Assembly: GCF_030252345.1 (NCBI RefSeq) | Contig: NZ_CP126980.1 | Span: 891,501-955,500, forward strand | DNA: 64,000 nucleotides | Direction of reading: 5' to 3' | Source of the DNA: Actinoplanes oblitus | GTDB taxonomy: Bacteria > Actinomycetota > Actinomycetes > Mycobacteriales > Micromonosporaceae | Shown: positions 36,201 to 52,460 of the stretch, piece by piece | Numbering within the stretch: the first letter of the stretch is position 1 | Layout: every line of letters begins with the position of its first letter | Translations under genes and position numbers: made by a program | The notes under the pieces: model-generated | The model's database searches: none | What the model was told of the DNA's origin: nothing | The model's input: the letters and a program-made list of their open reading frames with translations, nothing else

Positions 36201-36586
36201 CCTTGTTCTCCGGAGTCCGCAAGCTGGTCCAGAACAACAAGTGGGCGCAGGATCACCTCGGCGTGCCCTCGTACGACGACGCTCCGGGCGGCATCTTCGG
36301 CATGAACGGCGGCACCACCTACGGCGGCACGTTCGTGGGCACCACCGAGACCGACTGGGACGACCCGCAGCTCTGGGTGCACGAGAAATGGCACCGTGAT
36401 CACCAGTGGGAGAAGTACGGCCTCAGGTTCGGCTACATGTACCTGAAGGAGGAGTTCACCCGGGACAAGGGCCCGAACTCCTGCAACCGGTACGAGGTCG
36501 AGGCGGAGAAGCACAGCGTCGAGGGCAACCAGACGTACACGGGTACCAACGGCGGTGGCGGCTACAACTGCACCGGATCGATGTAG
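30221..36586 (+). CDS. Secreted Rhs/YD-repeat polymorphic toxin with HExxH C-terminal domain
   Basis: 2121 aa, SD GGAG. A Sec-type signal peptide (RIAVVALGLLVLPTMAIQPANA) is followed by an N-terminal beta-rich region with conserved SYVSCNDDKAG and ELIYESGKGWHGR. A YD-repeat barrel runs at about 950-1780 and closes with the Rhs core end GAREYDPALGRFISVDPVQD and DPTGLW (about 1826). Next come a hydrophobic helix (AIIGAIIIGVGAALGAAAG), a (GS)n linker, and a 240-aa variable tip. The tip contains HEKWH (2054-2058) and, 33 residues on, YEVEAE (2091-2096), a pattern expected of a zinc metallopeptidase. Such proteins present a cleaved C-terminal effector to neighbouring cells. It is followed by a very stable hairpin and a lipoprotein gene that may provide immunity. 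It is paralogous to the 43.0-50.0 kb protein. Confidence 0.88.
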   Translation: MSRARPPSGVPARRPARRRWQARIAVVALGLLVLPTMAIQPANAAKPRPVPLTPQVEKLDKVGGEAAGLPRERVVPPSAKLPAPVWPAADAPVPVRWAKAPQGAGARTLAPDAAGTAATGAVSAKVVDRARLPQRWRAGMVTRVTGPAAGTASLSLDYSSFRYAYGADWSSRLRAWRIPECALTTPDQAGCAATPLASRNDPAQQKVTAEVPVSATASTLVALAAEPSGDSGDFTATSLASSSTWSAGGSTGDFTWSYPVRTPPGIGGTPPSISLGYSSGSVDGRSSASNNQPSWIGEGFGYSPGFIERSYVSCNDDKAGDDNNPTYSGDLCWRSSNATMSLGSTSTELIYESGKGWHGRAEDGSKVEQLTGTSNDDDNGEYWKITTTDGTQYFFGLNKLPGETSTTNSAWTVPVYGNHAGEPGHADTFAGSRLTQAWRWNLDYSIDVHGNTTSYWYDTETNQYAAEGTKSKNVSYVRGGNLARIDYGTWDRSSTDRSVAALAQVNFTTADRCLSDCSTHDGAHWPDTPWDQECKAGATSCEGFSPTFWTTKRLAKITTRIWDTTKATPAWQDVDSYTLTHTFPSPGDGQRPGLWLDSIVHAGLVGGTVATPPVSFDPVAMPNRVLTKTNTTNNWQRMAAIHTETGAVIQVTYSLPECSSGNLPDSPQNNTKLCYPVVGPDPYSTDGGSITEWWHKYVVRQVTETDVQLQDGHQAPVKNTYYTYEGAPAWHYADDDGLSKPKYKTWNQFRGFASVLTQVGDSDKTLKKTTYLRGMHGDKLAPSGGTRSVTVPASLGSETVYDEDEFAGMIREEVVYNGTTDKPVSKTVNVPWRSPALASRTINGDTAEARYTGIKTTYTGTALGVDGARGWRVTSQVSTFDDTYGTVQTLQDSGDLAKSGDEKCTTTVYHRNTAKNLVKLAGRVTVTTLVCGTAPSSPDHLVSDTQYFYDKATSASTAPVRGDVTRTDVLKDWVAGSGTTWLTSTQASFDDFGRTIGSSDTRGNTTSTEFSPANSLITSRVDKNALGWATTTVVNPAWGSTAKVTDMNGRVSEGDYDALGRTTNVWNVRWSRADHPTQPALRFTYYYSQNRSGYPYVKTEALNAGGGIDVSYEIFDGLLRSRQTQKAAVGGGRVVTDKLYDAHGRVAMEYAAHAEPGDPSGTLWWEPEWSVPAQTVNVYDRADRVTDAIFRSGDGVTNMVEKWRTRTSYEGDRTTVIPPAGGTPQTTVSDAKGRTVELRQYTAASGTAGAFDTMKYVYDSRDRLSTVTDSSNNQWKYTYDIRGRKIEVRDPDKGVTKSWYNDSDDLIKTTDARDETLAYAYDILGRKTALYDDAVADANKRAEWKYDKLYTGVTVKGQLTEKIRYDNGNAYKWQARGFTGDYKVSGEQWVIPAAETGLAGTYIYGHSYSPFDGSETSVSYPSAGGIVDEQVTTAYDKTSGLATSLTSAWSAVGSYVAGQAYSAYGEPTVTTMKIAGGVYTQQAIAYELDTRRTQQIKVKPETATGTVAERGYTWDPAGNLTSIADAPQVGPADTQCFGYDALRRLTSAWTPKAGVTCGSTPSVADLGGAAPYWLEWSFDSLGNRTREVSHSSVGDTVRDYTIPPSGTDAVRPHAVTAMKTTGPAGTSTINYDYDNTGNMKARGAQALTWDAEGKLATTAENGQTTTSLYDADGTRLLRRDAGGTTLFLPNNEVRKSAAGISGTRYYTFNGKTVASRTNVAQSLTWLFDDHQGTQQVAVNAYTQKVDIRRQTPYGEARGTNPAWPNAKGFVGGDNDPTGLVHIGAREYDPALGRFISVDPVQDLNDPQQWNGYAYAHNNPTTSADPTGLWDNPWAIIGAIIIGVGAALGAAAGSTGGSGSGSGSGSGSGSGSGSGSGGKGGGGSGGGIAGFVVNKFANMMKQSVNCFMGICGPVGDYVSGEVNGVQQRLQDAWDGAQNWVDQNVFKPAQDALTWANTKINSLESKMFGLGIAGVVIAMGGSCDRKHGMTVCKENSLFSGVRKLVQNNKWAQDHLGVPSYDDAPGGIFGMNGGTTYGGTFVGTTETDWDDPQLWVHEKWHRDHQWEKYGLRFGYMYLKEEFTRDKGPNSCNRYEVEAEKHSVEGNQTYTGTNGGGGYNCTGSM
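35789..35853 (+). repeat. (GlySer)n-coding simple repeat in first Rhs gene
   Basis: About 65 bp of imperfect ggctccgg/ggttccgg hexamer repeats encode a Gly-Ser linker between the membrane-prone helix and the toxin tip. It is prone to slippage in multiples of 6 nt, which would keep the frame. Confidence 0.8.
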
Positions 36587-36594
36587 TGGAATAC

Positions 36595-36638
36595 CCGCGC
36601 GGGCGGCGCCGGCCGAGATGCCGGCGCCGCCCGCGCGG
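36595..36638 (+). terminator. Large hairpin after first Rhs gene
   Basis: A perfect 19-bp stem (36595-36613 with 36620-36638), loop cgagat, all G/C, 9 bp after the Rhs stop. There is no U tract, so it may act as an attenuator or 3'-end stabiliser rather than a classical intrinsic terminator. Confidence 0.65.
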
Positions 36639-36677
36639 CACCGAGTACGGATGACGGCAAGGCATGGAAGGCGAGCA

Positions 36678-37784
36678 GTGGCACACATCGGATCGACCCC
36701 GCGGCGAGTACCTGGTGTGGTGACGGTGCTCGCCGTCCTCGCTCTGCTCGCCGGTTGTATCGCGGCGCCGACCGAGCCGGTGCGGCACTACCGGCTCGGC
36801 ATCGCGAAGATCGGCGAGACGTACCACGTATTCGTCCCGCAATGCCCCGGCGAGAAGGTGGCCGACCTGCAGGCCGGCGACGAACAGACGTGGTGGCGCG
36901 CGGCGGGACCGCGATCGGTCACCGGACCGGGGGAGTTCCTGACCCTGGGCGTGGACGACCCGTTCGCGGAGGTCGTCGTGCGGGCCGGCAGCAATCCGGC
37001 GCTGCCCACGCCGCCGGCGCGTCTGTCGGTGCGCGCCTTCTTCGTCGGCCTGAACGGCGAGACGAAGTCCCTGATCGAGAAGTTCGACACCGGCGCGGTG
37101 CCGGCCCAGCCGGCCGGCACGGATCCGCAGACGGCGCGATACGCGGTGCGCGGCGACGACGAACCCGTGACAGCCGACGAGATCCGCCGCAGTGCGGGCT
37201 GCCCCCTGGGCTCGTCACCGGGCACCGGACCGGTCCCCGGCCAGCAGCCGGCCTCGGCGATCGCCAAGGACGCCGCGGACCGGGTGAAGCGCTCGCTGCT
37301 GGATCCGGCCGGCGTCGCCGGTCTCGGGCCGTGGACGTTGTACTCGCCGTACACCGAGGACGTCGCCTCGCACGTCTGCCGGAACAGCACCGCCATGGGT
37401 GCTGTCAGCAGCGCGTACGGTCAGCAGCGGACCTGGCACGACAAGACGCGGAGCGCCGAGCAGTTCGCCGGGGCGTTCGGCGCGATCCCGGCGGCCGATG
37501 CCGTGGCCCAGGTGGACGCCGCTCTCACCTGCACCGGATACGACTACCTCTACGCGTACCGCGACATCCGCCGGATGCCCCTTCCGCGGCTGCCACGGGT
37601 GGACCGGCAGCTGATGTTCTGTGCGCTGCGCGACGGCTCGGCCCACGTCTGCACCGTGCTGCTGGCCCGGGGCGACATGCTCACCCGTCTGCTCACCGTG
37701 GGGAAGACCCGGCAGGCCGCCGTCGGCCTGGCCGAGGAGATCGCCCCGCAGGCGGCCGATCGGCTCGCGGCGGGGACCGCCTAG
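36678..37784 (+). CDS. Putative lipoprotein downstream of Rhs toxin
   Basis: 368 aa from GTG 36678, chosen for GGAAGG about 7 nt upstream; ATG 36651 in frame is the alternative. The signal peptide ends in a lipobox, LAVLALLAGC, so the protein should be lipid-anchored outside the cytoplasmic membrane. The mature part has two likely domains: about 35-135 (strand-rich, HYRLGIAKIGETYHVFVP) and about 185-360 (helical, with four Cys in CRNST, LTCTG, MFCALRD and HVCTV that could form disulfides). I do not recognise a family. Its position directly after a toxin gene makes it a candidate immunity or accessory protein, but separate function is equally possible. Confidence 0.7.
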   Translation: MAHIGSTPRRVPGVVTVLAVLALLAGCIAAPTEPVRHYRLGIAKIGETYHVFVPQCPGEKVADLQAGDEQTWWRAAGPRSVTGPGEFLTLGVDDPFAEVVVRAGSNPALPTPPARLSVRAFFVGLNGETKSLIEKFDTGAVPAQPAGTDPQTARYAVRGDDEPVTADEIRRSAGCPLGSSPGTGPVPGQQPASAIAKDAADRVKRSLLDPAGVAGLGPWTLYSPYTEDVASHVCRNSTAMGAVSSAYGQQRTWHDKTRSAEQFAGAFGAIPAADAVAQVDAALTCTGYDYLYAYRDIRRMPLPRLPRVDRQLMFCALRDGSAHVCTVLLARGDMLTRLLTVGKTRQAAVGLAEEIAPQAADRLAAGTA

Positions 37785-37936
37785 CCACGTGGACTGCCGA
37801 CAATCCCCAAGTCAGGGGGAAGCCGGGGCAGCCGGAAGGCGACCTTCCAAATAGAGTGCTGTCGTTCGTTTCTTGATCGACTCCGCTGCGGGTCCGATCG
37901 GGTCACGGCATGCCACAGCTACTCGGGGAGTCCACA

Positions 37937-40900
37937 TTGGCTATACATCCCATATCCAGAAAGCGGATACGCGTCGTGGCCTGCGCCGCGGCCGTGAGCA
38001 CCTCGGCTCTGGTGCTGTCCGCGCCGGCCGCCGCCCAGGCCGCTCCGAAGGGACCGGCTGCCGCTCCGGCGTCCGCGCCCTCCGAGGCCTCGGCGGTTCA
38101 GGCGGCGAAGAAGTACGGCAAGCGGGTCGAGGTCATGTCCGCCCGGACCGAGTCCAGCCAGATCTTCGCGGAGCCGACCGGGCGCCTCGTCTACGAGGCC
38201 ACGGCGGTCCCGCAGCGGGTCAAGAACGCCGACGGCAGCTGGTCCGACATCGACCTGAACCTGGCCAAGGGCTCGGACGGATCGCTCGCGCCGGCCACCT
38301 CGACCTCCGACGTGCGGTTCTCCACCGGGGGCCCCGGGCCGCTGGTCACGCTGGTCCAGAACGGCAAGAAGTTCACCCTCACCTGGCCGCTGGGTGCCCT
38401 GCCGGCACCGAGCGTCTCCGGTGACGCGGCCACCTACGCCGAGGTACGTCCGGGGGTGGACCTGGTGGTGCACGCCACCGCCACCGGCTTCAGCCACGTC
38501 GTGGTGGTCAAGAACGCCACCGCCGCGGCCGACCCGGCGATCCGCGACCTGCGGTTCGACCTGGGCGGCGACGCCACCGTCACCCGGCTGCCGGACGGCA
38601 CGCTGCGCGCCGCGGCCGGCTCCGAGGTGCTGGCCACCGCGCCCGAGCCGCAGATGTGGGACTCCACGACGACCGCCCCGGCCCCGGTCGCGTCTCCGTC
38701 GGCGGCAGCGGCTCCGTCCGCACGGTCGGCGGCACCGGCGGCGGACACCCGCAGCAACACGCGCTCGAGCCACGCCGGGCCGGGTGACGCGGCCCGCACC
38801 GCGGACATGGCGACCGAGATCAAGGACCGGCGTCACCTGATCCTGCACCCGGACACCAAGCTGATCGGGCTGACCACGAAGTTCCCGGTCTACCTCGACC
38901 CGCTGTGGAGCACCGGCAAGACCCGGTGGGCGTACGCCACCAACAACAACAGCAACAACACCGACACCTCGGTCGCCCGGGTCGGGTCGGACCCGGACAG
39001 CGGCAAGATCTACCGGTCGTTCTTCGAGTTCCCCACCACCGCCATCAAGGGCAAGTTCGTGCGCACCGCGTACGTTCAAATGGTTGTCGACCACACCTGG
39101 TCGTGCACCAAGACGCCGACCACGATGTGGACGGGCGGGTCGATCACCACGCCGCGTACGCCGTGGAGCACCGCGCTCGGCACGTACCTCTGGGCGGCCA
39201 GCTCGAACGCGAACGAGGGCAGCGGCTGCAGCGACTCGCCGCAGCCGGACATGACTGTCAACTTCGGCAACGACAGCGGGACCACGGCGGTGAGCAACTG
39301 GCTCAACACCGCGGCGGGCAAGGGCTCGGCGTCGGTCACCGTCGGGTTCAGCGCCCGTGACTCGGACAAGACCTCGGAGAGCGACCAGACCCGCTGGAAG
39401 AAGTTCTTCCCGTCCAAGGCGAAGCTGATCGCCGACGTGGACGCGAAGCCGGGTCAGCCGACCAGCCTCCAGGTCAGCGGCACCGCGTGCAACTCGACGC
39501 TGACCATCGGCACCACCACGCCGTACTTCGCGGCGGTCCTGCCGGACGCGGACGGCACGACGCAGACGCTGAAGGCCACCTGGGAGCTCTACAAGGCGCC
39601 GGTGGGCCAGGCGTTCACCGCGATCACCGCTCCGGCGCAGACCTCGACGGGTGGTGGCAAACAGACCCAGAGCGCCAAGACGTCGGCGCTGACCAACGGA
39701 CTCCGGTACGCCTTCCGGGTCTACTCGACAGATCAGGCGCCCTACAACGTCAAGAGCCCGGTCTCGGAGTACTGCTTCTTCTGGGTCGACACCTCGGTGC
39801 CGAACGTCTCGATCACCCGGGTCACGCCGGACGCCGACCTGCTGCCCGGCAAGCCGGTCAAGTTCACCCTGTCCTCCACCTCGACGAATGTGAAGGGCTT
39901 CAACTACGGCTGGACCGAGGCGGCCACCTCGTCGGTGGTGCCGACCACCGCTAACGGCGTCACCTCGGCGACGGTCACGCTGAGCATCCCGAAGTACGGC
40001 ACCAACATCCTGTACGTCCAGGCCGTCAACACCGCCGGATCCAAGGGGTACGGCTCCGCCGACTTCACCGCGCTGCGCCCGTCCCCGTCGGTGGCCCGCT
40101 GGCCGCTGGAGATCGGCGGCCCGGTCGACGCGACCAGCGCCGTCATCGACCAGCAGCCCAGCCTGGCCGGCGACAACCAGCTCACCCTGAGCGGTACCAC
40201 CTGGGCCGACAAGGGCCGGGTGATCGGCGCGCAGAACCTCGCCTTCAACGGCTCCGGGGTGGTCACCACGCCGAAGTTCCTGGACACCACGTCGAGTTTC
40301 TCGGTGGGCGCCTGGGTCCGGCTGGAGAACGTGACCAACTACCAGACCTTCATCTCCGAGGACGGCACCGGCACGGCGAACTTCCAGCTGCAGTTCCGGC
40401 CGGACGACACGAACGGGGACGGCGCCGCGGACAAGTCGTGGTGCTTCGGCCTGCGGCCGACGGACACCTCGGCGACCACCGCCTTCAACTTGGCGTGCTC
40501 CACCAACACCGCGGTGCTGAACCGGTGGACGCATGTGGCAGGCGTCTACGACGCGGCGACCAAGAAGGTGAGCGTCTGGGTGGACGGCGTGATGCGAGCC
40601 GAGGCCGCCGCACCGGCGACGGCGTGGCAGTCGACCGGCCCGCTGCGCATCGGTAACCGCAAGTACTCCACCACCCAGTACGTCGACGCGCTCTACGGCA
40701 GCGTGGCCGACGTGCAGGTCTTCAACCGGGCCCTGGTCGCGAACGACTTCAGCGGCAAGATGGCCTCGGAGCCGGACTCCGGTGGCTTCGACGAGCCGGG
40801 GATCGTGGCGCCGACCCGGGTCGGCAAGTGGGACTTCGAGAGCGCCAACCCCTGTTACGAGGCGGCCAACGAGACCGGGCTCTGCGACGCGCCGGACGCG

Positions 40901-42898
40901 GGCAGCGGCTGGAACCAGCGGATCAACCTCACCCCCGGCTCGTACGTCGGTCCCGGTAACCAGAGCACCGGCCTGAGCCTGGACGACCAGCACTGGATCG
41001 ACGACCCGTCCGACCCGCACTACCACCAGGCCACCCGTGAGTATGGCGTGGTCCAGCGCAACACGGCCCCGGCCGGCACCACGGAGAACTGGAAGGACAC
41101 CCCGGTGCTGCGCACCGACCAGTCGTTCAGCGTCTCGGTGTGGGTGCAGCCGGCCAAGCTGGAGAACACCATGACGGCGATCTCCCAGCGGGGCACCTAC
41201 CAGGCGCCGTTCTACCTGCAGACGCGCAAGTCGACGGTGGACGGCGTGACCGGCATGCGGTTCGAGGTCATGACGGTCAGCGCCGACCAGACCGAGAACG
41301 AGGTCTACAACCACCTGATCGCTCCGCGGGTGCTCACCGAGGACGACACCAACGACTGGTTCAACCTCGTCTTCGTCTACAACGCGGCCAGCTCCAACCA
41401 GCTGCGGCTCTACGTGAACGGCAACCTGGAGGGCACCGCGCCCGGCGTGCTGTGGAACGCTGCCGGGTCGATGACGGTCGGCGGCGCCTGGTGGTCCGGG
41501 GACCCGACCACCGGCGCGATGTGCGACCAGTGGTACGGCGGCATCGACGACCTGGAGATCTTCCAGGGTGCGCTGACCAGCGGCGGCGTGCAGGCGCTCG
41601 CCGCCGAAGAGGGCGAGCACACGCCGCCGGCCGCGGCGTGGAGCCTCGGCGACGGGTCGGGCACCACCGCCGCGGACACCAGCCCGTCGGCGGCGAACCC
41701 GGCGACGCTGACGAACGTGAGCTGGGGAGCCGGCCGGCTGCCCGGTACGCAGGCCGCCACGTTCAACGGGTCGAGCAGCTACGCGACCTCGCCGTACCAC
41801 CTGAACACCAGCGACAGCTTCACGGTGTCGGCGTGGGCGCGGCTGACCGCCAAGGGTGCCGACCGCACCATCGTCACCCAGGACGCCAGCGGGTACAGCT
41901 CGCTGTATCTGCAGTACCAGGCGTCCAGTGACCGGTGGATCGCGCAGATGCCGTCCGCGACCTCCGGAAGCGTGACGTGGTCGACGGCGAAGTCGACGAA
42001 AGCGCCGGTGCTCGGCAAGTGGACCCATGTGGCGGCGGTGTTCAACGACCACTTGAAGACGCTGACGCTGTACATCAACGGCGTGGCGCAGTCCACCGTC
42101 TCGAACGTCAACTCGTTCTACGACCCGAACGGGGCGACCTGGATCGGCCGCAGTGGCACCACCTGGTTCCAGGGCGACCTGGCCGACGTGGCCATGTGGG
42201 ACCGCCCGGTCACCGCGGGCGAGATCGGTGAGCTGGCGGCGCCGACCGAGGTCGCGTACTGGGCGTTGGACGAGACGACCGGCACTGTCACGGTGGACGG
42301 CTCCCCGCGGCAGGCTGCCGGCACGGTGCTGGGCGGCGTCACCCACACGACGCCGGGCTACCGGGCGAGCGACCCGGGCGCGTACAACTTCAACGGCACC
42401 GACGCGGTGGTGACGGCGGGCAAGCCGTTGGTGCGCACCGATCAGTCGTTCACCGTGGCGGCCTGGGTGCGGGTGACCAGCAACGCCCACTTCTCCACGG
42501 CGATCAGCCAGGACGGGGCCCACTCGACCGGGTTCCAGCTGCAGTGGGGCGGCAACTGCAAGTGTTGGGAGTTCGCCATGCCGAACTCGGACGCGGTCAA
42601 TCCCGGTCAGGTCTCGGTGCTGGCGCCGGGCACCGCGCCGCTGAACACCTGGACGCATCTGGCCGGTGTCTACGACGCGGCGACCGCTACCGCGACGCTG
42701 TACGTCAACGGGGAGGCGGTGGCCACTCAGGCGGCCCCGGCCGCGCCGTGGAACGCGACAGGCCCGCTCACGGTGGGTAAGACCAAGTGGAACGACGTCG
42801 ACAGCGACTGGTTCGCCGGCGACATCGACGACGTCCATATCTACCAGGGCGCCCTCTCCAAGGCGAGCATCGTCGCGCTGGCGGATCCGACCGTCTGA
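37937..42898 (+). CDS. Giant secreted DNRLRE/LamG-repeat protein
   Basis: 1653 aa from TTG 37937, chosen because GGGGAG lies 6 nt upstream and the signal peptide (IRVVACAAAVSTSALVLSAPAAAQA) then has a normal length; ATG 37910 has no ribosome-binding site. Residues about 45-310 form an N-terminal region with repeated Gly/Asp strands. A DNRLRE-like beta domain follows at about 310-500 (TSVARVGSDPDSGKIYRSFF), then Fn3/Ig-like segments. Four LamG/concanavalin-like domains start near 717 (ARWPLEIGG), 962 (GKWDFESAN), 1232 (AAWSLGDGSG) and 1438 (AYWALDETTG). It has no catalytic motif or LPxTG. Proteins like this lie next to Rhs genes in many actinobacteria, probably as surface adhesin or carrier. 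A 20-bp-stem terminator follows. Confidence 0.88.
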   Translation: MAIHPISRKRIRVVACAAAVSTSALVLSAPAAAQAAPKGPAAAPASAPSEASAVQAAKKYGKRVEVMSARTESSQIFAEPTGRLVYEATAVPQRVKNADGSWSDIDLNLAKGSDGSLAPATSTSDVRFSTGGPGPLVTLVQNGKKFTLTWPLGALPAPSVSGDAATYAEVRPGVDLVVHATATGFSHVVVVKNATAAADPAIRDLRFDLGGDATVTRLPDGTLRAAAGSEVLATAPEPQMWDSTTTAPAPVASPSAAAAPSARSAAPAADTRSNTRSSHAGPGDAARTADMATEIKDRRHLILHPDTKLIGLTTKFPVYLDPLWSTGKTRWAYATNNNSNNTDTSVARVGSDPDSGKIYRSFFEFPTTAIKGKFVRTAYVQMVVDHTWSCTKTPTTMWTGGSITTPRTPWSTALGTYLWAASSNANEGSGCSDSPQPDMTVNFGNDSGTTAVSNWLNTAAGKGSASVTVGFSARDSDKTSESDQTRWKKFFPSKAKLIADVDAKPGQPTSLQVSGTACNSTLTIGTTTPYFAAVLPDADGTTQTLKATWELYKAPVGQAFTAITAPAQTSTGGGKQTQSAKTSALTNGLRYAFRVYSTDQAPYNVKSPVSEYCFFWVDTSVPNVSITRVTPDADLLPGKPVKFTLSSTSTNVKGFNYGWTEAATSSVVPTTANGVTSATVTLSIPKYGTNILYVQAVNTAGSKGYGSADFTALRPSPSVARWPLEIGGPVDATSAVIDQQPSLAGDNQLTLSGTTWADKGRVIGAQNLAFNGSGVVTTPKFLDTTSSFSVGAWVRLENVTNYQTFISEDGTGTANFQLQFRPDDTNGDGAADKSWCFGLRPTDTSATTAFNLACSTNTAVLNRWTHVAGVYDAATKKVSVWVDGVMRAEAAAPATAWQSTGPLRIGNRKYSTTQYVDALYGSVADVQVFNRALVANDFSGKMASEPDSGGFDEPGIVAPTRVGKWDFESANPCYEAANETGLCDAPDAGSGWNQRINLTPGSYVGPGNQSTGLSLDDQHWIDDPSDPHYHQATREYGVVQRNTAPAGTTENWKDTPVLRTDQSFSVSVWVQPAKLENTMTAISQRGTYQAPFYLQTRKSTVDGVTGMRFEVMTVSADQTENEVYNHLIAPRVLTEDDTNDWFNLVFVYNAASSNQLRLYVNGNLEGTAPGVLWNAAGSMTVGGAWWSGDPTTGAMCDQWYGGIDDLEIFQGALTSGGVQALAAEEGEHTPPAAAWSLGDGSGTTAADTSPSAANPATLTNVSWGAGRLPGTQAATFNGSSSYATSPYHLNTSDSFTVSAWARLTAKGADRTIVTQDASGYSSLYLQYQASSDRWIAQMPSATSGSVTWSTAKSTKAPVLGKWTHVAAVFNDHLKTLTLYINGVAQSTVSNVNSFYDPNGATWIGRSGTTWFQGDLADVAMWDRPVTAGEIGELAAPTEVAYWALDETTGTVTVDGSPRQAAGTVLGGVTHTTPGYRASDPGAYNFNGTDAVVTAGKPLVRTDQSFTVAAWVRVTSNAHFSTAISQDGAHSTGFQLQWGGNCKCWEFAMPNSDAVNPGQVSVLAPGTAPLNTWTHLAGVYDAATATATLYVNGEAVATQAAPAAPWNATGPLTVGKTKWNDVDSDWFAGDIDDVHIYQGALSKASIVALADPTV

Positions 42899-42908
42899 CG
42901 GTAAGCCG

Positions 42909-42961
42909 GACCCGCCGGTGCCGATCACCCAGTGTGATCGGCACCGGCGGGTCTCTTTATT
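42909..42961 (+). terminator. Strong terminator after LamG gene
   Basis: A perfect 20-bp stem (42909-42928 with 42934-42953), 5-nt loop, then TCTTTATTT. An intrinsic terminator that separates the LamG gene from the second Rhs gene. Confidence 0.92.
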
Positions 42962-42981
42962 TACTGATTCGCACTCATGCA

Positions 42982-43010
42982 TTTACTTCCCGATCGAGTG
43001 GATCTAGCAT
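42982..43010 (+). promoter_or_regulatory. Promoter of second Rhs gene
   Basis: TTTACT (42982-42987), a 17-nt spacer and TAGCAT (43005-43010), giving a start near 43017 and a leader of about 30 nt. It closely resembles the first Rhs promoter (TTTACA-N17-TACGGT). Confidence 0.6.
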
Positions 43011-43047
43011 CGCAGCGATTGATCGCGGCTGCGCGGGGGAGTGCATG

Positions 43048-46000
43048 ATGGTCGGCCACGAACGGCGGGCGCGGTATGCCCATTTCGGGTCCATCTTGGA
43101 TGGTCGGTTTCCGCGCGGCGGGTTCGTGATCGGGCGTCTGGCTCGGGCGTCGCGGTCGCGGTGGTCGTTGGCGGTGGTGGCGGCCGCGGCGGTGACGGCG
43201 TCGATGATGTCGGTTCCCGCGCTGGCCGCGGAGAGGCCCGCGCCGTTGAAGGCGCAGGCCGAGAAGCTCGATCACGACGGCGGTGAGGTGGCCGGCCGTG
43301 GCTGGGCGGAGCATCCGGGTAAGCAGGTGGACCTGCCGGCTCCGGTGTGGCCGGCGGCGGGGTCGGCCGTACGCGTGACGCCGAAGGCGGGTCTGGCCCG
43401 CAGCGCGGCCGTGGCCTCGGGGATGACCGCGGCGGTGGTCGATCGCGGTGCGGTGCCGGCGCGCTGGCGGCGGGGCGTGGTGGTCAAGGTGTCGGCGCAG
43501 GCCGCGGGCACGGCCAGGGTGGCGATGAACTACGACAAGTTCCGGTACGCCTATGGCGGGAACTGGTCGTCGCGGCTGCGGTGGTGGCGGCTGCCGGATT
43601 GTGCGCTGAGCACACCTGACAGGGCGGGTTGTTCGCCGACCCTGCTGCCGTCGGGCAACGATGTGAGCAGCACGACGGTGACCGGTGAGGTGCCGGTGGC
43701 GGCGGCGAGGACGGCGATGGTCGCGCTGGCGGCGGCGCCGTCGGGTGACTCGGGGGATTTCGGTGCCACGCCGCTGTCGTCGTCGTCGACCTGGTCGGCC
43801 GGTGGTGCTACCGGTGACTTCACTTGGTCGTACCCGATGCGCGCGCCGAATGGGAACAACGGCCCGCAGCCGGGTCTGTCGTTGTCGTATTCGTCGTCAA
43901 GTGTGGACGGCCGGTCGTCGGCCACGAACAACCAGCCGTCGTGGATCGGTGAGGGTTTCGAGTTCTCGCCGGGTTCGGTGGAGCGGCGTTACGTGTCGTG
44001 TGATGACGACAAGTCGGGGTCGCCGAACAATCCGGCGCATTCGTTCGAGCAGTGCTGGCGGTCGAACAACGCGACGTTGTCGCTGGGTGGCAGCAGCACC
44101 GAGCTGATCTACGAGGCGGGTAAGGGCTGGCACGGCCGGTCGGAGAACGGTTCGAAGGTCGAGTTGCTGACCGGTGCGGATAACGGCGACGACAACGGTG
44201 AGTACTGGAAGGTCACCACCAACGACGGTATCCAGTACTTCTTCGGGCTGAACAAGCTGGCCGGGCAGAGCGATGCCACGAATTCGGCGTGGACCGCGCC
44301 GGTCTACGGCAACCACGAGGGCGAGCCGTGTCACAAGAGCGCGTTCGCCGACTCGGACTGCAAGCAGGCGTGGCGGTGGAACCTCGACTACGCGATCGAC
44401 ACGCACGGCAACACGATCTCGTACTGGTACGGCACCGAGTCGAACAAGTACGCGCAGGAGGGGTCGGCGTCCAAGACGGTGTCGTACATCCGGGGCGGTT
44501 ATCTGAGCCGGATCGATTACGGCACCTGGGATCGGGGTGCCGGTGACCGGTCGGTGGCGGCGCTGGCGCAGGTGAACTTCGAGGTCGGTGACAGGTGTCT
44601 GGCCGACTGCTCGACGCATGACGGCGGCCACTGGCCGGACACGCCGTGGGATCAGGAGTGCAAGGCCGACGCGGCGACGTGTGACGAGTACTCGCCGACG
44701 TTCTGGACCACCAAGCGGCTGACGAAGATCAGTACTCGGGTGTACGACACGTCGAAGGCGGGCGGCGCGGGCTGGCAGGACGTCGACTCGTGGACGCTGG
44801 AGCACAGTTTTCCGTCGCCGGGTGACGGGCAGAAGGGTGGCCTGTGGCTCAAGTCGGTGACGCACACCGGCCTGGTCGGTGGCACCGCGGCGATGCCGGC
44901 GGTGACCTTCGACCCGGTCGCCAAGCCGAACCGGGTGCTGACCAAGACGAACACCACCAACAACTGGCTGCGGATGGCGGCCGTGCACACCGAGACCGGC
45001 GCGATCCTGCAGGTCAGTTACTCGCAGCCGGAGTGCTCGGCGGGCAACCTGCCGTCCTCGCCGCAGAACAACACCAAGCTGTGCTACCCGGTGATCGGCC
45101 CGGACCCGTACAGCACCTCGGGCGCGGACATCACCGAGTGGTGGCACAAGTACGTGGTCACCCAGATCACCGAGATGGACGTGCAGCTGGCCGACGGGCA
45201 TCAGGCGCCGGCGAAGAACACCTATTACACGTACGAGGGTGACCCGGCCTGGCACTACGCCGACGACGACGGGCTGAGCAAGCCGAAGTACAAGACGTGG
45301 GACCAGTTCCGTGGCTACAAGACGGTGTCGACGCGGGTCGGTGACACGAACCAGACGCTGACCCGGACCACCTATTTCCGGGGCATGCACGGTGACAAGC
45401 TCGCGCCCTCCGGCGGCACCCGCAGCGTGACAGTGCCGGCGTCGCTGGGCTCGGAGACGGTGTACGACGAGGACCAGTTCGCCGGCATGGTCCGTGAGCA
45501 GGTCGTCTACAACGGTACCGAGGACAAGCCGGTCTCCAAGACGGTGAACGTGCCGTGGCTGTCGGCGCCGACCGCGTCGCGGACGATCAACGGGGACACG
45601 GCCACCGCCCGTTACGTGAACACCGCGAAGGTGTACACCGGTACGGCGCTGGGTGTGAACGGCTCGCGCGGCTGGCGGGTCAACAGCACCTCGACGACGT
45701 TCGACTCCTACGGCATGCCGGTCGCGGTGCAGGACAACGGTGACGACGCCAGGTCCGGTGACGAGAAGTGCACCACCACGACGTACAACCGGAACACCGC
45801 GAGCAACCTGCTGTCGCTGCCGAGCCGGGTGACCACCACGGCGCTGGCCTGCGGGGTCAAGCCGACCAGCCAGGACCAGATGGTCGACGACGCGGTGACC
45901 TTCTACGACGGCGCCACCAGCGCGAGCACCGCGCCGGTGCTGGGCGACCTGACCCGTACCGATCTGATGAAGGACTGGACGCCGGCCGGTGGCACGGTGT

Positions 46001-49000
46001 GGCTGACCAGCGGTCAGGCGACGTTCGACAAGTTCGGCCGGCAGGCGACCGAGACCGACGCCCGCGGGCTGACCGTCACCAGCACGTACACCCCGGCCGC
46101 CGGGCTGCTCACCCAGAAGACCGAGACCAGCGGCATGGGCTGGGTCACCACCACCAAGCTGAACCCGGCGTGGTCGTCGGTGGTGCAGATCTCGGATGTC
46201 AACAAGCGGATCACCGACGTCGCGTACGACCCGCTCGGGCGCACCACGAAGACCTGGGACGCCGGCTGGACCAAGGCGGACCACCCGTCCCAGCCGGTCG
46301 CGGCGTACACCTACCACTTCGACGCGAACCGCAGCAGCTACCCGTGGGTGAAGTCGACGACGCTGAACGCGGCGGGCGGCACCAACGACTCGTACACCAT
46401 CTACGACGGGTTCCTGCGCTCGCGCCAGACCCAGCGGATCGCGGTGGGCGGCGGCCGGGTGGTCGCCGACACCCTGTACGACCAGTACGGTCAGGCGTAC
46501 CTGGCGTTCGGCGCGCACGCCGAGCCGGGCAGCCCGTCCGGCACGCTGTGGTGGGAGCCGGAGTGGTCGGTGCCCACCCAGACGCTCACCGAGTACGACC
46601 GGGCCGGCCGGGCCACCGCCAGCGTGTTCCGTTCCGGTGACGGCGTCACCAACATCGTCGACAAGTGGCGGACCACCACCAGTTACGAGGGCGACCGGGT
46701 CACGGTGGTGCCGCCGGCCGGCAGCACGCCCAAGACCACGGTCAGCGACGTGCAGGGCCGCACCGTCGAGCTGTGGCAGTACAACACCGCGGCGGGTGTC
46801 GCCGGTGGGCACGACACGGTCAAGTACGGCTACGACGCGAAGAACCGGATGACCTCGGCGGCCGACGCGGCCGGCGACACCTGGACCTACAAGTACGACC
46901 TGCTCGGCCGCCAGATCGAGACCGTCGACCCGGACAAGGGCAAGACCACCTCGACCTACAACGACCTCGGTGACCTGCTCACCACCACCGACGCCCGCAA
47001 CCAGGTGCTGGCCTACAGCTACGACTCGCTGGGCCGCCAGACCGGCGTCTACGACGGCAGCGTCGCCGACGCGAACAAGCGGGTCGAGCTCAAGTACGAC
47101 AAGCTCGCCAACGGCCTGACGCTGAAGGGCCAGGTCACCGAGAAGACCCGGTACGAGACGGCGGCGGACGGCACCCGCCAGCCGTACACCTGGCGCGCCA
47201 CCAACTTCACCCAGCGCAACCAGGTCAGCGGCGAGCAGTGGATCATCCCGGCGGCGGAGACCGGGCTGGGCGGAACGTATGTGTACAGCCACTCCTACTC
47301 GCCCTACACCGGCGCGCCGACCAGCCTGACCTATCCGGCCGCGTCCACGCTGCCCAGCGAGGGCGTCGAGACCGCGTACGACAAGACGACGGGCCTGCCG
47401 ACCACCCTGACCTCGCTGTGGTCGACCGTCGGCACGTACGTGGCCGGGCAGGACTACAGCGCGTACGGCGAGCCGACCTCCACCATGCTCAAGATCACCG
47501 GTGGGGTGTACGCGCAGCAGACCCTCGCCTACGAGCTGGACACCCGCCGGGTGCACCAGGTGCGGGTCAAGCCGGAGACCGCCACCGGCACGGTGGCCGA
47601 CCGTACCTACAGCTACGACGCGTCCGGCAACATCCAGCAGGTCACCGACGCCCCGCAGGTGGGCCAGACCGACATCCAGTGCTTCGTCTACGACTCGCTG
47701 ATCCGGCTCACCTCGGCGTGGACGCCGAAGGCCGGCGTCGACTGCAAGACGACGGCGCCGTCGCTGGACAACCTGGGCGGACCCGCGCCGTACTGGATCG
47801 ACTGGACCCTCGACGCGCTGGGCAACCGCACCAAGGAGGTCTCGCACAGCGCCGCCGGTGACACCACGCGCGGCTACACGGTGCCCACCGCGGGCAAGGA
47901 CGTCATCCGCCCGCACGCGGTCACCGGCATGACCACGACCAGCCCGGACCAGAGCAGCGTCACCGTCGGCTACGGCTACGACGCGGCCGGGAACATGACC
48001 AGCCGGCCCGGTGACACCGGCACCCAGACCATCACCTGGGACGCCGAGGGCCACGCGGTCAAGACGGTCGAGGGCACCAAGGTCGCCACGAACCTCTTCG
48101 ACGCCGACGGGACCCGGCTGATCCGGCGCGACAGCACCGGCACCACACTGTTCCTGCCCGGCCAGGAGATCCGCCGCAACGGGGCCAGCACCACCGCCAA
48201 CGACGCGACCCGCTACTACAGCTTCGGCGGCACGGTGGTCGCCTCCCGCACGGTCGCGGCGCAGAGCCTGACCTGGCTGTTCAGCGACCACCAGGGCACC
48301 CAGTCGACGGCTGTCAACGCGTACACCCAACAGGTCAGCATCCGCCGGCAGACGCCCTACGGCGCGCCGCGCGGCACCAACCCCGCGTGGGTCAACGGCA
48401 AGGGCTTCGTCGGCGGCGACATCGACGCCACCGGACTGACCCACCTCGGCGCCCGCGAATACGACCCATCACTGGGCCGATTCATCTCGGTCGACCCGGT
48501 GCAGGACCTGACCGATCCACAGCAGTGGAACGCGTACTCGTACTGCGGCAACAACCCGATCACCCAGGCCGACCCCACCGGCATGCGCGGCGACGACCTG
48601 TTCTACGGAACGGCCGGTGCCGCCAAGCGGGAGAGCAACGACTACACCAAGGACCCGACCAGCGGCGGCGCCGGTGACGGCAACGACGGCGGCGGCAACA
48701 ACGGTGGCGACAACAACGGCGGCGGTAGTTCCTCGGGCGACGGTGGCGGCGGCAACGGCGGCAGCGGAAGCCACAACCAGCCCAAGCCCAAGAAGAAGGC
48801 CTGGTGGCAGCGCGGCATCGACTGGGTCGCCGAGAACAAGAACACCCTGGCGGGTGCGGCAGTCGGCATCACCACGTTCGTCGGCTGTGAGGCGCTCACC
48901 GCGGGTACCGGAACCGTCGGATGCATGATGGCGGCCGGAGCCGCGGGCAAGATGACGACCGACGCCTTGGACGGCAACATCCACGGGGTCGGCGATGCCA

Positions 49001-49986
49001 TCAACTCCTTCAACACCGGTGCGGTCGAAGGCCTGCTGGCCGTCCCGCTGGCCGCCGCCGACCTGGTCAGCCAGGCTGGCAACATCGCCGGCGACATCAA
49101 GGAAGGCGACTGGGCCGGCGCGACGGGGCACAGCGCGCTGGCGGCACTGGACGTCCTGACCGTGGTGGACGGGGTCAAAGGCCCCGGCAAGTGCATGCAC
49201 AGCTTCACCGCCGTCACGCCGGTGCTGCTCGCGAACGGCGACAGCAAGCCCATCGGCGACATCGAGGTGGGCGACGAGGTCCTCGCGACCGACCCGCAGA
49301 CCGGCCAGAACGCCGCCGAACAGGTCGAGGTCCTGCACGACAACGTCGATGAGGACTTCGCCGACCTGACGGTCCAGCTCACCGACGGCACCTCGTCGGT
49401 CATCAACACGACCGCGCATCACCCCTTCTGGGATGAGACCGACCAGAAATGGACCAACGCCGCCGACCTACCGACCGGCCACCACCTGCGCGACCAGGCC
49501 GGCCACGACGCGGCGACGGTCACCAACGTGTACGCCTACCCCGGCGCGCACCACATGCACAACCTCACGGTCGCCAATCTGCACACGTACTACGTGCTCG
49601 CCGGTGACACGCCGGTGTTGGTGCACAACTGTGGTGATACTCCCGCACCGGCGATGGCGGATAAGCCTCTCGGGCCGAAGACCGCTAGGGAGACTACCGA
49701 GTCCCTCGCCGGGCAGTTAGGGGATGCCTTGGGTGTTCCGGTCAAACCCGCCAAGGGCGATGGTTTCACCATGTCGATTCCCAACAAGCCCCGGAATCTA
49801 GTGCTCCGGGTGATGCATGCCGGAAGTGGTGGACGCGAGTTTCCGTACTGGAGGCTCTCGGTTGAAGGTAAGGAGTCGTTCACGCGGACGGGGGAGCGTT
49901 CGAACGATCCCAAGCAGATACATGTCGACATCGACGGAGACTCGTTCCAGACGATAATGGGTATCGTTAATGGGGTCAGGCGATGA
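43048..49986 (+). CDS. Secreted Rhs/YD-repeat polymorphic toxin with HINT pre-toxin domain and novel tip
   Basis: 2312 aa from ATG 43048 (GGGGGAG 6 nt upstream; ATG 43045 is adjacent). The signal peptide (SLAVVAAAAVTASMMSVPALAA), N-terminal region and YD barrel are paralogous to the first Rhs. The core ends at GAREYDPSLGRFISVDPVQD and DPTGM (about 1842). Then come a Gly/Asn linker, a hydrophobic patch and a HINT autoprocessing domain from Cys2049 (CMHSFTAVTPVLLANG) through TAHHPFWD to LVHNC (2192-2195). The last 117 residues (for example PNKPRNLVLRVMHAGSGGRE) are an unrecognised tip, presumably released by HINT cleavage. By hand count, 49681-49980 is 58% GC against about 70% for the body, a sign of tip replacement. 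The stop overlaps the immunity candidate (ATGA). Confidence 0.9.
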   Translation: MVGHERRARYAHFGSILDGRFPRGGFVIGRLARASRSRWSLAVVAAAAVTASMMSVPALAAERPAPLKAQAEKLDHDGGEVAGRGWAEHPGKQVDLPAPVWPAAGSAVRVTPKAGLARSAAVASGMTAAVVDRGAVPARWRRGVVVKVSAQAAGTARVAMNYDKFRYAYGGNWSSRLRWWRLPDCALSTPDRAGCSPTLLPSGNDVSSTTVTGEVPVAAARTAMVALAAAPSGDSGDFGATPLSSSSTWSAGGATGDFTWSYPMRAPNGNNGPQPGLSLSYSSSSVDGRSSATNNQPSWIGEGFEFSPGSVERRYVSCDDDKSGSPNNPAHSFEQCWRSNNATLSLGGSSTELIYEAGKGWHGRSENGSKVELLTGADNGDDNGEYWKVTTNDGIQYFFGLNKLAGQSDATNSAWTAPVYGNHEGEPCHKSAFADSDCKQAWRWNLDYAIDTHGNTISYWYGTESNKYAQEGSASKTVSYIRGGYLSRIDYGTWDRGAGDRSVAALAQVNFEVGDRCLADCSTHDGGHWPDTPWDQECKADAATCDEYSPTFWTTKRLTKISTRVYDTSKAGGAGWQDVDSWTLEHSFPSPGDGQKGGLWLKSVTHTGLVGGTAAMPAVTFDPVAKPNRVLTKTNTTNNWLRMAAVHTETGAILQVSYSQPECSAGNLPSSPQNNTKLCYPVIGPDPYSTSGADITEWWHKYVVTQITEMDVQLADGHQAPAKNTYYTYEGDPAWHYADDDGLSKPKYKTWDQFRGYKTVSTRVGDTNQTLTRTTYFRGMHGDKLAPSGGTRSVTVPASLGSETVYDEDQFAGMVREQVVYNGTEDKPVSKTVNVPWLSAPTASRTINGDTATARYVNTAKVYTGTALGVNGSRGWRVNSTSTTFDSYGMPVAVQDNGDDARSGDEKCTTTTYNRNTASNLLSLPSRVTTTALACGVKPTSQDQMVDDAVTFYDGATSASTAPVLGDLTRTDLMKDWTPAGGTVWLTSGQATFDKFGRQATETDARGLTVTSTYTPAAGLLTQKTETSGMGWVTTTKLNPAWSSVVQISDVNKRITDVAYDPLGRTTKTWDAGWTKADHPSQPVAAYTYHFDANRSSYPWVKSTTLNAAGGTNDSYTIYDGFLRSRQTQRIAVGGGRVVADTLYDQYGQAYLAFGAHAEPGSPSGTLWWEPEWSVPTQTLTEYDRAGRATASVFRSGDGVTNIVDKWRTTTSYEGDRVTVVPPAGSTPKTTVSDVQGRTVELWQYNTAAGVAGGHDTVKYGYDAKNRMTSAADAAGDTWTYKYDLLGRQIETVDPDKGKTTSTYNDLGDLLTTTDARNQVLAYSYDSLGRQTGVYDGSVADANKRVELKYDKLANGLTLKGQVTEKTRYETAADGTRQPYTWRATNFTQRNQVSGEQWIIPAAETGLGGTYVYSHSYSPYTGAPTSLTYPAASTLPSEGVETAYDKTTGLPTTLTSLWSTVGTYVAGQDYSAYGEPTSTMLKITGGVYAQQTLAYELDTRRVHQVRVKPETATGTVADRTYSYDASGNIQQVTDAPQVGQTDIQCFVYDSLIRLTSAWTPKAGVDCKTTAPSLDNLGGPAPYWIDWTLDALGNRTKEVSHSAAGDTTRGYTVPTAGKDVIRPHAVTGMTTTSPDQSSVTVGYGYDAAGNMTSRPGDTGTQTITWDAEGHAVKTVEGTKVATNLFDADGTRLIRRDSTGTTLFLPGQEIRRNGASTTANDATRYYSFGGTVVASRTVAAQSLTWLFSDHQGTQSTAVNAYTQQVSIRRQTPYGAPRGTNPAWVNGKGFVGGDIDATGLTHLGAREYDPSLGRFISVDPVQDLTDPQQWNAYSYCGNNPITQADPTGMRGDDLFYGTAGAAKRESNDYTKDPTSGGAGDGNDGGGNNGGDNNGGGSSSGDGGGGNGGSGSHNQPKPKKKAWWQRGIDWVAENKNTLAGAAVGITTFVGCEALTAGTGTVGCMMAAGAAGKMTTDALDGNIHGVGDAINSFNTGAVEGLLAVPLAAADLVSQAGNIAGDIKEGDWAGATGHSALAALDVLTVVDGVKGPGKCMHSFTAVTPVLLANGDSKPIGDIEVGDEVLATDPQTGQNAAEQVEVLHDNVDEDFADLTVQLTDGTSSVINTTAHHPFWDETDQKWTNAADLPTGHHLRDQAGHDAATVTNVYAYPGAHHMHNLTVANLHTYYVLAGDTPVLVHNCGDTPAPAMADKPLGPKTARETTESLAGQLGDALGVPVKPAKGDGFTMSIPNKPRNLVLRVMHAGSGGREFPYWRLSVEGKESFTRTGERSNDPKQIHVDIDGDSFQTIMGIVNGVRR

Positions 49987-50309
49987 ACAGCGACATTCTT
50001 GTCGACCGGCTTTGGGGTGGCAAACTTGAGTCCACCTGGTTCGATGTGGCGGCCGGGCGGGCGGATCTCGTGATCTCGACCACCAGTGACGACGATGTCC
50101 GTCGATTCCGGGTCGTGGCTGACTCGTTGCGCGAATTCCGTTTCGAGACGGACGGAGGAGGGCGGCCGTGGTTCTATGCGGAGGTGACTTCCGCCTTCAT
50201 TGAGGAAGTGGCGGAGGGGTTGGTTCGCCTGACCTTGGTCCTGTGGTCAGAGGCTCACGAAATGGTGATATCGGCGAAGTCGATCACGATCGAGGAAATG
50301 CTGACGTAG
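49983..50309 (+). CDS. Candidate immunity protein for second Rhs toxin
   Basis: 108 aa, acidic, no signal peptide or membrane helix, so cytosolic. It begins MNSDILVDRLWGGKLESTWF and has alternating strands (LVISTTSDDDVRRFRVVADS, LVRLTLVLWSEAHEMVISA), an alpha/beta pattern common in immunity proteins. I recognise no named family. The ATG overlaps the toxin stop by 4 bp, and GC is about 61% by hand count (49981-50280), as low as the toxin tip. Both facts argue that toxin tip and immunity gene moved in as a unit. A GC-rich hairpin follows (50332-50360, no U tract). Confidence 0.75.
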   Translation: MNSDILVDRLWGGKLESTWFDVAAGRADLVISTTSDDDVRRFRVVADSLREFRFETDGGGRPWFYAEVTSAFIEEVAEGLVRLTLVLWSEAHEMVISAKSITIEEMLT

Positions 50310-50639
50310 CGAAGCGCACGGGTTATGTTCCCCCGGTCGGGTCGGCAGCTCGGCCGGGGAGCGCCCGTCAGGGCGGCGGCTGTGGCGCCGCCCGGCCACA
50401 CCCGCCGTTCTGGTGGCAGCCGGGATCACCGGCGCCGGCGGTCACCGGCGTCCCGCCGCTCCGATCACATGCGGGCAAGATCGTATAGAGCGCGGCCCGG
50501 CTTATGATCCAACAAAATCGAACATTACCGGCCGCATATTGACTGTTTCGATCAGGGCGGCGTAACTTCCGAAACATCAATGACTCGACGTATGTCGATG
50601 TCCTCAGCTCCGTCCGCCACCGATGGGAGCACCCTCAGC
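50310..50639. other. Intergenic region before GH54 gene
   Basis: 330 bp with no gene. It contains GC hairpins at 50332-50360 and 50372-50394 (GGGCGGCG/CGCCGCCC) that may end the toxin-immunity transcript, an AT-richer stretch at about 50505-50580, and the GH54 promoter with its flanking inverted repeat. Confidence 0.6.
50539..50576 (+). promoter_or_regulatory. GH54 promoter with LacI-like operator
   Basis: TTGACT (50539-50544), an 18-nt spacer and TAACTT (50563-50568). The 7-bp inverted repeat TGTTTCG (50544-50550) and CGAAACA (50570-50576) brackets the -10. CGAAAC-type half-sites are typical of LacI-family sugar repressors, fitting arabinose-dependent control. Confidence 0.5.
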
Positions 50640-52460
50640 ATGTCCAGAAAACGCTCTCTGATCGTCGCGGCGATCAGCCTGGTCGTCGGGCTGATCGCCG
50701 CACCGAGTCCGGCGAACGCCGCCGGAACACTGCCGTGCGACATCTACGCCTCGGCGGGCACGCCCTGCGTGGCCGCGCACAGCACCACCCGCGCCCTGTT
50801 CGGCGCCTACAGCGGCCGGCTCTATCAGGTCACCCGGGCCTCCGACGGGGCCACCCACGACGTCGGCACGCTGGCCGCCGGCGGCTACGCCAACGCCGGC
50901 GACCAGGACGCCTTCTGCGACGGGAGCACCTGCCGGATCACCAAGATCTGGGACCAGACCAGCCGGCACAACGACCTGTCCGTCGCGCCCGACGGCGGGG
51001 CCGGCAGCGGCGACCGCGGTGCCGGCGCCGGCGTGATCGCGGTGACGGCCGGCGGCCACAAGGTGTACGGCATCTGGGGCACCCCGGGCGTCGGCTACCG
51101 CTACACCGGCGTAGCGTCCGGCGTCGCCGTCAACGGCCAGCCCGAGGGCGTCTACATGGTCGCCAGCGGCACCCACGTCGGCTCCGACTGCTGCTTCGAC
51201 TACGGCAACGCCGAGTCCACCCCGTACGACACCGGCAACGGGCACATGGACGCCGTCAGCATCGCCACCACCTGCTACTTCGCGCCGTGCCAGGGTTCCG
51301 GCCCGTGGATCGAGGCGGACCTGGAGAACGGCATGTTCCAGGGCGCCAACGGCTCGAACCCGAATCCCGGCAACAACTCGGCCTTCGTCACCGCGGTGCT
51401 GAAGAACAACGGCCAGACGACGTACGCGCTCAAGGGCGGCAACGCGCAGTCCGGCGGCTTGACCACCTGGTGGAACGGCTCGCTGCCCACCGACAAGCCG
51501 GGCTACAAGCCGATGCACCAGGAGGGCGGCATCATCCTGGCGATCGGTGGCGACAACTCCAACCGCAACCGGGGCACCTGGTTCGAGGGCGCGATGGTCT
51601 ACGGCTACCCGAGCGACGCGGCGGAGAACGCCGTGCAGGCCAACGTGGTCGGCGTCGGTTACGCCGGGCAGACCCACATCCCGAACGGACCGCAGGGCAC
51701 CGTCACCGGCCCCGGCGCCAAGTGCGTGGACGTGGCGGCCGACGACACCGGGGCCAACGGCGCCGCCGTCCAGCTCTGGGACTGCCAGACGTACGCCGAG
51801 GACCAGCACCTGACGCACTTCGCCGACGGCTCGCTGCGCACGCTGAACCGCTGCGTCGACGCGACCGGCAACGGGACCGCCAACGGCACCCTGATCCAGC
51901 TGTGGGACTGCAACGGCGGCGGTGCCCAGAAGTGGATCCAGCAGGCCGACGGCTCGCTGCGCAACCCGCAGTCCGGCCGCTGCCTGGACTCGCCGAACGG
52001 CAACACCGGCAACGGCTCCCGGCTGCGGCTCTGGGACTGCAACGGCGCGGCGGCGCAGAAGTTCGCGGTCAACGCCGGCGGCGTCGTGGGCACGCCCGGC
52101 GGCAAGTGCACCGACGTCGCCGGGGACGACACCGGCGGGAACGGTACGGCAGTGCAGATCTGGGACTGTCAGTCGTACGCCGTCGACCAGCACTGGTTCC
52201 ACCATTCGAACGGGGCGCTGCGCACGCTCGGCCGCTGCCTCGACATCGTCGGCAACGGCACGGCCAACGGCACCCAGGTCGAACTCTGGGACTGCAACGG
52301 CGTCGGCGGCCAGGTCTGGCAGCAGCAGGCCGACGGCTCGCTGCGCAACCCGCAGTCCGGCCGCTGCCTGGACGCGCCGAGCGGCGCCACCGGCAACGGG
52401 ACCCGGTTGCGGATCTGGGACTGCAACGGCAGCGCGGCGCAGAGGTTCGCCCTGACCTGA
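50640..52460 (+). CDS. Secreted GH54 alpha-L-arabinofuranosidase with two ricin-type lectin domains
   Basis: 606 aa from ATG 50640 (GGGAG 11 nt upstream). A signal peptide (LIVAAISLVVGLIAAPSPANA) is followed by the GH54 catalytic domain at about 28-360. Its start LPCDIYASAGTPCVAAHSTT closely follows fungal AbfB, as do GPWIEADLEN (nucleophile Glu, about residue 229) and IGGDNSN (acid Asp, about 305). Two ricin B-like beta-trefoils follow (about 365-490 and 490-606) with repeated LWDCNG and QxW units. Fungal AbfB instead carries CBM42. The enzyme removes arabinofuranose side chains from arabinoxylan, pectin or arabinan outside the cell. Its promoter has a LacI-like inverted repeat. Confidence 0.92.
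   Translation: MSRKRSLIVAAISLVVGLIAAPSPANAAGTLPCDIYASAGTPCVAAHSTTRALFGAYSGRLYQVTRASDGATHDVGTLAAGGYANAGDQDAFCDGSTCRITKIWDQTSRHNDLSVAPDGGAGSGDRGAGAGVIAVTAGGHKVYGIWGTPGVGYRYTGVASGVAVNGQPEGVYMVASGTHVGSDCCFDYGNAESTPYDTGNGHMDAVSIATTCYFAPCQGSGPWIEADLENGMFQGANGSNPNPGNNSAFVTAVLKNNGQTTYALKGGNAQSGGLTTWWNGSLPTDKPGYKPMHQEGGIILAIGGDNSNRNRGTWFEGAMVYGYPSDAAENAVQANVVGVGYAGQTHIPNGPQGTVTGPGAKCVDVAADDTGANGAAVQLWDCQTYAEDQHLTHFADGSLRTLNRCVDATGNGTANGTLIQLWDCNGGGAQKWIQQADGSLRNPQSGRCLDSPNGNTGNGSRLRLWDCNGAAAQKFAVNAGGVVGTPGGKCTDVAGDDTGGNGTAVQIWDCQSYAVDQHWFHHSNGALRTLGRCLDIVGNGTANGTQVELWDCNGVGGQVWQQQADGSLRNPQSGRCLDAPSGATGNGTRLRIWDCNGSAAQRFALT

Follow-up and report, generated by a model that had tools for sequence, protein, structure and literature searches.

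In a 64,000-nucleotide stretch of the Actinoplanes oblitus genome (contig NZ_CP126980.1, positions 891,501 to 955,500; hereafter called the window), the C-terminal tip of an Rhs/YD-repeat polymorphic toxin protein and the 108-residue acidic protein encoded directly downstream very probably constitute an effector-immunity pair, carried as an exchangeable cassette at the end of the Rhs gene. The tip, a predicted toxin domain, comprises a Cys residue followed by 117 residues (49630..49986, + strand, including the stop codon at 49984-49986) and directly follows a PT-HINT autoprocessing domain (49192..49629, +). The open reading frame (ORF) of the predicted cognate immunity protein (49983..50309, +) starts within the end of the tip-coding sequence. 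We favour this reading because the pairing of the two genes recurs on a different carrier, the base composition of the cassette differs from that of the Rhs body, the tip of a related protein is much more similar than the remainder of that protein, and the predicted fold of the small protein matches that of a known immunity protein.

Recurrence and exchange of the pair

The strongest evidence for a functional pair comes from a genome of another family of the same class (G989), in which separate profiles located both genes at one place (L030), on a carrier devoid of a HINT domain. There, a 1762-residue Rhs protein ends in a relative of the tip (E 1.8e-21, 79 bits, with a profile that did not include the G989 sequence). 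The tip stop codon is immediately followed by the open small-protein frame, whose nearest ATG, three bases further on, yields a protein of 103 residues that matches the small-protein profile, also built without it, at E 2.6e-17. Because the adjacency recurs on the Rhs carrier of G989, the pairing is more than chance.

Searches of the protein database returned seven members of the small-protein family, the window's own among them, and two long proteins with the tip, namely the window's own and P0004; the tip searches covered long proteins only. The tips of P0004 and of the window protein align end to end with 75% identity, compared with 49% for the N-terminal part, 40% for the Rhs repeats, 33.5% for the region preceding the HINT domain and 49% for the HINT domain itself. 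Similarly, P0007 aligns end to end with the window small protein and is 77% identical to it. We infer that P0004 and P0007 are encoded by neighbouring genes, as their longest contigs have the same length (14866). The G989 pair and the identity contrast with P0004 show that both genes move together, as a single cassette.

The preliminary description of this locus had proposed such a cassette on the basis of hand-counted GC contents of 58% for positions 49681-49980, about 61% for 49981-50280 and about 70% for the Rhs body. Computed values are very close (58.3%, 60.3% and 68.9%, respectively). The third-position GC content is 93.6% in the body, 89.5% in the region before HINT and 93.8% in HINT, before dropping in the tip (67.8%) and the small ORF (75.2%), which delineates a low third-position GC cassette at 49630..50309 (+). 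Among 118-codon windows clear of the tip, the minimum is 81%. The best single composition breakpoint along 43174-49983 is codon 49630, that of the Cys following the HINT Asn residue, with a log-likelihood gain of 30.9; when 20-codon blocks were shuffled 200 times, the gain never exceeded 18.0. The cassette idea is therefore borne out by this break at the HINT junction and by the contrast between the Rhs repeats and the tip in P0004. Together with the HINT-less Rhs protein of G989, these data indicate that the tip is exchanged independently of its carrier.

Rhs carrier, tip and small protein

As stated in the preliminary description, the frame 42787-49986 (+) and the 108-residue ORF are both present, with a 4-bp stop/start overlap (ATGA, 49983..49986, +). 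The Rhs gene is likely to span 43174..49986 (+). Its frame is open from 42787, and as the database entry of the protein (P0003) is listed at 2270 residues, the coding start is probably at 43174, later than initially assumed. The residue numbers given at first are correct if counted from 43048 (Cys2049 at 49192, Cys2195 at 49630 and the 117-residue tip at 2196-2312), and it is this start that should probably be replaced. The protein consists of RHS repeats and an Rhs core, matched by PF05593 (Pfam) and TIGR03696 (NCBIfam), followed by a Gly/Asn-rich linker and a hydrophobic stretch (48571..49191, +, as read from the translation), the PT-HINT domain and the tip. By eye, its N-terminus is basic then hydrophobic and resembles a signal sequence.

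The HINT domain proposed earlier was recovered with PF07591 (E 4.3e-16) and with the intein C-terminal motif TIGR01443 (0.0022 for the whole protein and 0.00045 for the C-terminal piece, both above the model cut-off). In the translation, it begins with a Cys residue at 49192 and ends with Val-His-Asn, the Asn codon being at 49627-49629; the next codon, at 49630, is for Cys, and the tip follows immediately. HINT autopeptidases located directly before tips are thought to release them, and they are reported with several export routes but never with type VI secretion systems (T6SS) or Photorhabdus virulence cassettes (PVC) (PMC3482391). A scan of 49600-50700 yielded two promoter-like sites, not used as evidence here, and no terminator-like site.

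As initially reported, the tip could not be placed in a known family. No family was found above the curated cut-offs in Pfam or NCBIfam (the latter searched with the window proteins only) and none in PADLOC, and a search of PDB sequences gave nothing relevant. The best Pfam value among four aligned tips, 0.036 for DUF3117, was obtained with a single row other than that of the window and was taken as chance. Profile and fold searches gave no confident match to a non-toxin domain either.

The small protein is indeed acidic, with an isoelectric point of 4.46 compared with 9.16 for the window tip; the values for acidic partners are 4.5-4.6. It has no signal-like stretch by eye and no Pfam, NCBIfam or PADLOC family above cut-off; its best Pfam value, 0.038 for DUF1719 in one of nine aligned rows, is under the cut-off and was considered as chance. 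The small protein is predicted to fold like PIM7, a polymorphic-toxin immunity protein of solved structure: PIM7 is among its two best fold matches, and the two match over most of the domain. This relationship appears at the structural level, as neither the PDB sequences listed for the small protein (E up to 5) nor those for its profile (E up to 10) included PIM7. The absence of library families, the recurrent adjacency and the predicted immunity-protein fold all agree with the undescribed effector-immunity pair that the preliminary description had put forward.

Distribution and genomic surroundings

We searched for both families in several sets of genomes; these draws overlap and are not additive, and the profiles differ between searches. 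The tip was found in 1 of 40 relatives, 24 of which belong to the genus, and in 1 of 326 genomes of the phylum, the source genome in both cases, and in 2 of 397 genomes of the order, the second hit being a cut-off fragment in G152. In the class, 22 of 394 genomes were listed at E up to 0.05. We kept the source genome and G989; the 20 others, as well as a second match in the source genome (G000, 0.02), were dropped given their scores of 14 to 21 bits versus 79 for G989. The alignments of six of the dropped matches and part of a seventh looked like chance. Within the family of G989 the tip occurs in 1 of 22 genomes, G989 itself. The small protein is not widespread: within the genus it was detected in 2 of 67 genomes (the source genome and, as a truncated gene, G064), within the phylum in 1 of 396 (the source genome) and, with a widened profile, within the class in 5 of 335, i.e., the source genome, G989 and three weak relatives in G1118, G904 and G1035 (E 1.2e-6 to 1.3e-4).

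Among 244 candidates, a protein search with the G989 tip retained no match at E 0.01 and missed even the window protein; because this is a known relative, the search says little about rarity. Scans of species genome contigs with two of the profiles (57 and 45 pattern stretches) confirmed no relative, and viral contigs, scanned twice (68 and 108 pattern stretches), yielded none either. Plasmid searches with both small proteins gave no match. Those with the tips returned a Rhizobium plasmid for the window tip (E 0.4; 15.3 bits with the profile, in a 512-residue frame), whose record has one annotated feature in all, and a Spirosoma plasmid for the G989 tip (E 0.9). Both were taken as chance. Among the papers listed on HINT/Rhs toxins and on Actinoplanes, judged by title and opening of the abstract, none was recognised as describing this pair.

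Several observations weigh against an effector-immunity pair. The pair is rare, and beyond the window, adjacency was seen base by base only in G989. The small-gene relative of G064 is truncated, covering only positions 34-101 of the profile, and the 17 kb retrieved around it contains no tip relative, the whole of G064 not having been knowingly searched for the tip. No tip relative was detected in the 1.8-3.3 kb scanned around the distant small-protein relatives of G1118, G904 and G1035; in larger stretches, the frames of one strand were read by eye only. The window tip is only mildly basic, with a charge of +2.0, and that of P0004 even less so (+0.9). The model of the window tip, built on four sequences including one fragment, is weak (predicted local distance difference test 73.4, predicted template modelling score 0.60), and structure searches returned no significant fold match for it. 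Debris such as that in G064 and G152 is expected of turnover at polymorphic-toxin loci; it also means that the pairing is not universal. The co-occurrence of the two families suggested as a check was seen in G989, on another carrier; the truncated gene of G064, with no tip relative in the 17 kb around it, formally speaks against strict pairing.

Some of these loci have features of their own. In G064 (L004, 9647-11163), the truncated small gene has as neighbours a DUF6924 gene and another small frame that matches no Pfam family, and together they resemble a group of orphan immunity genes. The tip fragment of G152 (L005) is located downstream of another Rhs end, which carries another, unclassified tip (L005, 1-900). 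In G1035, the small-protein pieces are in different frames, the second being very weak (7.5 bits), and the gene may be broken.

In the window itself, the pair is followed by a gene for an apparently unrelated alpha-L-arabinofuranosidase with ricin-type lectin domains (50580-52460, +). Another Rhs protein of 2121 residues, without HINT match, is encoded upstream (30221-36586, +). Its tip, which matched no family, contains an HEKWH stretch that we take to resemble a zinc metallopeptidase motif. The frame that follows (36555-37784) contains a lipoprotein-like start and could be the immunity gene of this first Rhs protein. Between the two Rhs genes, a 1662-residue protein with four stretches of Laminin_G_3 domains is encoded at 37910-42898 (+), and a 1687-residue frame is antisense to its gene.

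Possible activities and comparison with known systems

We propose that the Rhs protein would be exported and displayed, and that the PT-HINT domain would cut at the Asn-Cys junction (49629/49630), freeing the 117-residue tip, which might then enter a neighbouring cell and poison it. The 108-residue protein, presumably translated across the four-base ATGA overlap, would bind the tip inside producing and kin cells through its acidic, PIM7-like beta fold.

The tip is most likely a small nuclease, a metal-independent ribonuclease (RNase) being more probable than a deoxyribonuclease (DNase). The RNase is our leading guess, offered tentatively, and it is based on the acidic partners, the residues shared among the tips (Lys, Arg, Thr, Ser, Tyr, one His and one Asp) and the tips at other HINT loci of the source genome. 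Related HINT domains occur at four of these (L040, L041, L042 and L043), and tips were read from three, by script for L041 and L042 and by eye for L043, L040 giving no motif match. The L042 tip (G000:C1 at 1294001) matches Tox-SHH and that of L043 (8234634) matches Ribonuclease, i.e., nuclease models for two of the three. The L041 tip (G000:C1 at 4216693) matched no family model and may be a further unclassified toxin. Because the model of the window tip is weak and has no significant fold match, the nuclease claim is without structural support.

Within the same pair, the tip might act on a target other than nucleic acids, as a peptidase, a transferase or a membrane-active toxin. It matches no nuclease model, and the model of its fold is weak, as would suit this possibility, which we nevertheless regard as unlikely given the nuclease tips of the other HINT loci and a small protein that, devoid of a signal-like stretch by eye, would therefore protect the cytoplasm. 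Somewhat more doubtful still, in our view, is a PT7-like DNase activity of the tip, which the PIM7-like fold of its partner could suggest. According to PMC9990079, PT7 is a non-specific DNase that differs from known nucleases. The toxin chain of 8OWU was absent among the fold matches listed for the weak tip model (50 of 150 and 50 of 339), and the single acidic position common to the three full-length tips is few for a metal-dependent enzyme. That the tip is degenerate or inactive and the pair a remnant kept by hitch-hiking is very improbable: there is related debris in G152 and G064, but the two window frames can be aligned over their full length with the P0004 tip and P0007, and the HINT end residues are present. 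Least credible of all is a non-toxin end involved in adhesion or assembly, next to an unrelated ORF; the toxicity of the tip is a prediction, but the two genes are again paired on another carrier, and an immunity-protein fold is predicted for the small protein.

We thus retain the effector-immunity pair as the preferred reading. Its surprising part, on the strength of one good and one weak model, would be a PIM7-like immunity fold beside a tip that is not recognisably PT7. A speculative extension, which we hold to be possible, would make the tip the first representative seen of a toxin family whose nuclease fold (alpha, five strands, alpha) is undescribed, with PIM7 as an immunity scaffold that can be reused. 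If true, this scaffold would be paired with unrelated toxins both in Bacillus and in genomes of high GC content, probably actinobacterial. The locus adds a compact pair that is absent from the libraries searched, and structure prediction connects it with an immunity protein solved in complex with a polymorphic toxin. As the two components are small (117 and 108 residues), toxicity, rescue, HINT cleavage and a co-structure lend themselves to direct tests, and the pair could reveal whether a single immunity scaffold acts against unrelated toxins.

Among known systems, the tip can be compared with RNase toxins of the BECR fold (barnase, EndoU, colicin D/E5 and RelE), as described in PMC9990079. 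It may resemble them in its basic, His-containing set of shared residues and, in the weak model, in a helix followed by strands; no sequence, profile or fold match was found, and the model has an extra C-terminal helix. The small protein appears to share its fold with PIM7(Bc), the immunity protein of the polymorphic toxin PT7(Bc) (PDB 8OWU), with 14% identity and no detection at the sequence level. Its identity is 12% to an uncharacterised Neisseria gonorrhoeae protein (PDB 5V77), whose entry title gives no function. For the locus as a whole, a close parallel is provided by the Rhs/PT-HINT polymorphic toxins (Zhang et al. 2012, PMC3482391), with which it shares the Rhs stalk, the HINT domain directly before a variable tip and the immunity gene after it, whereas the window tip and small protein fall below the Pfam and NCBIfam family cut-offs. 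The pair is not categorically new: it consists of a tip and an immunity protein that are new to the libraries searched, within a known kind of polymorphic toxin.
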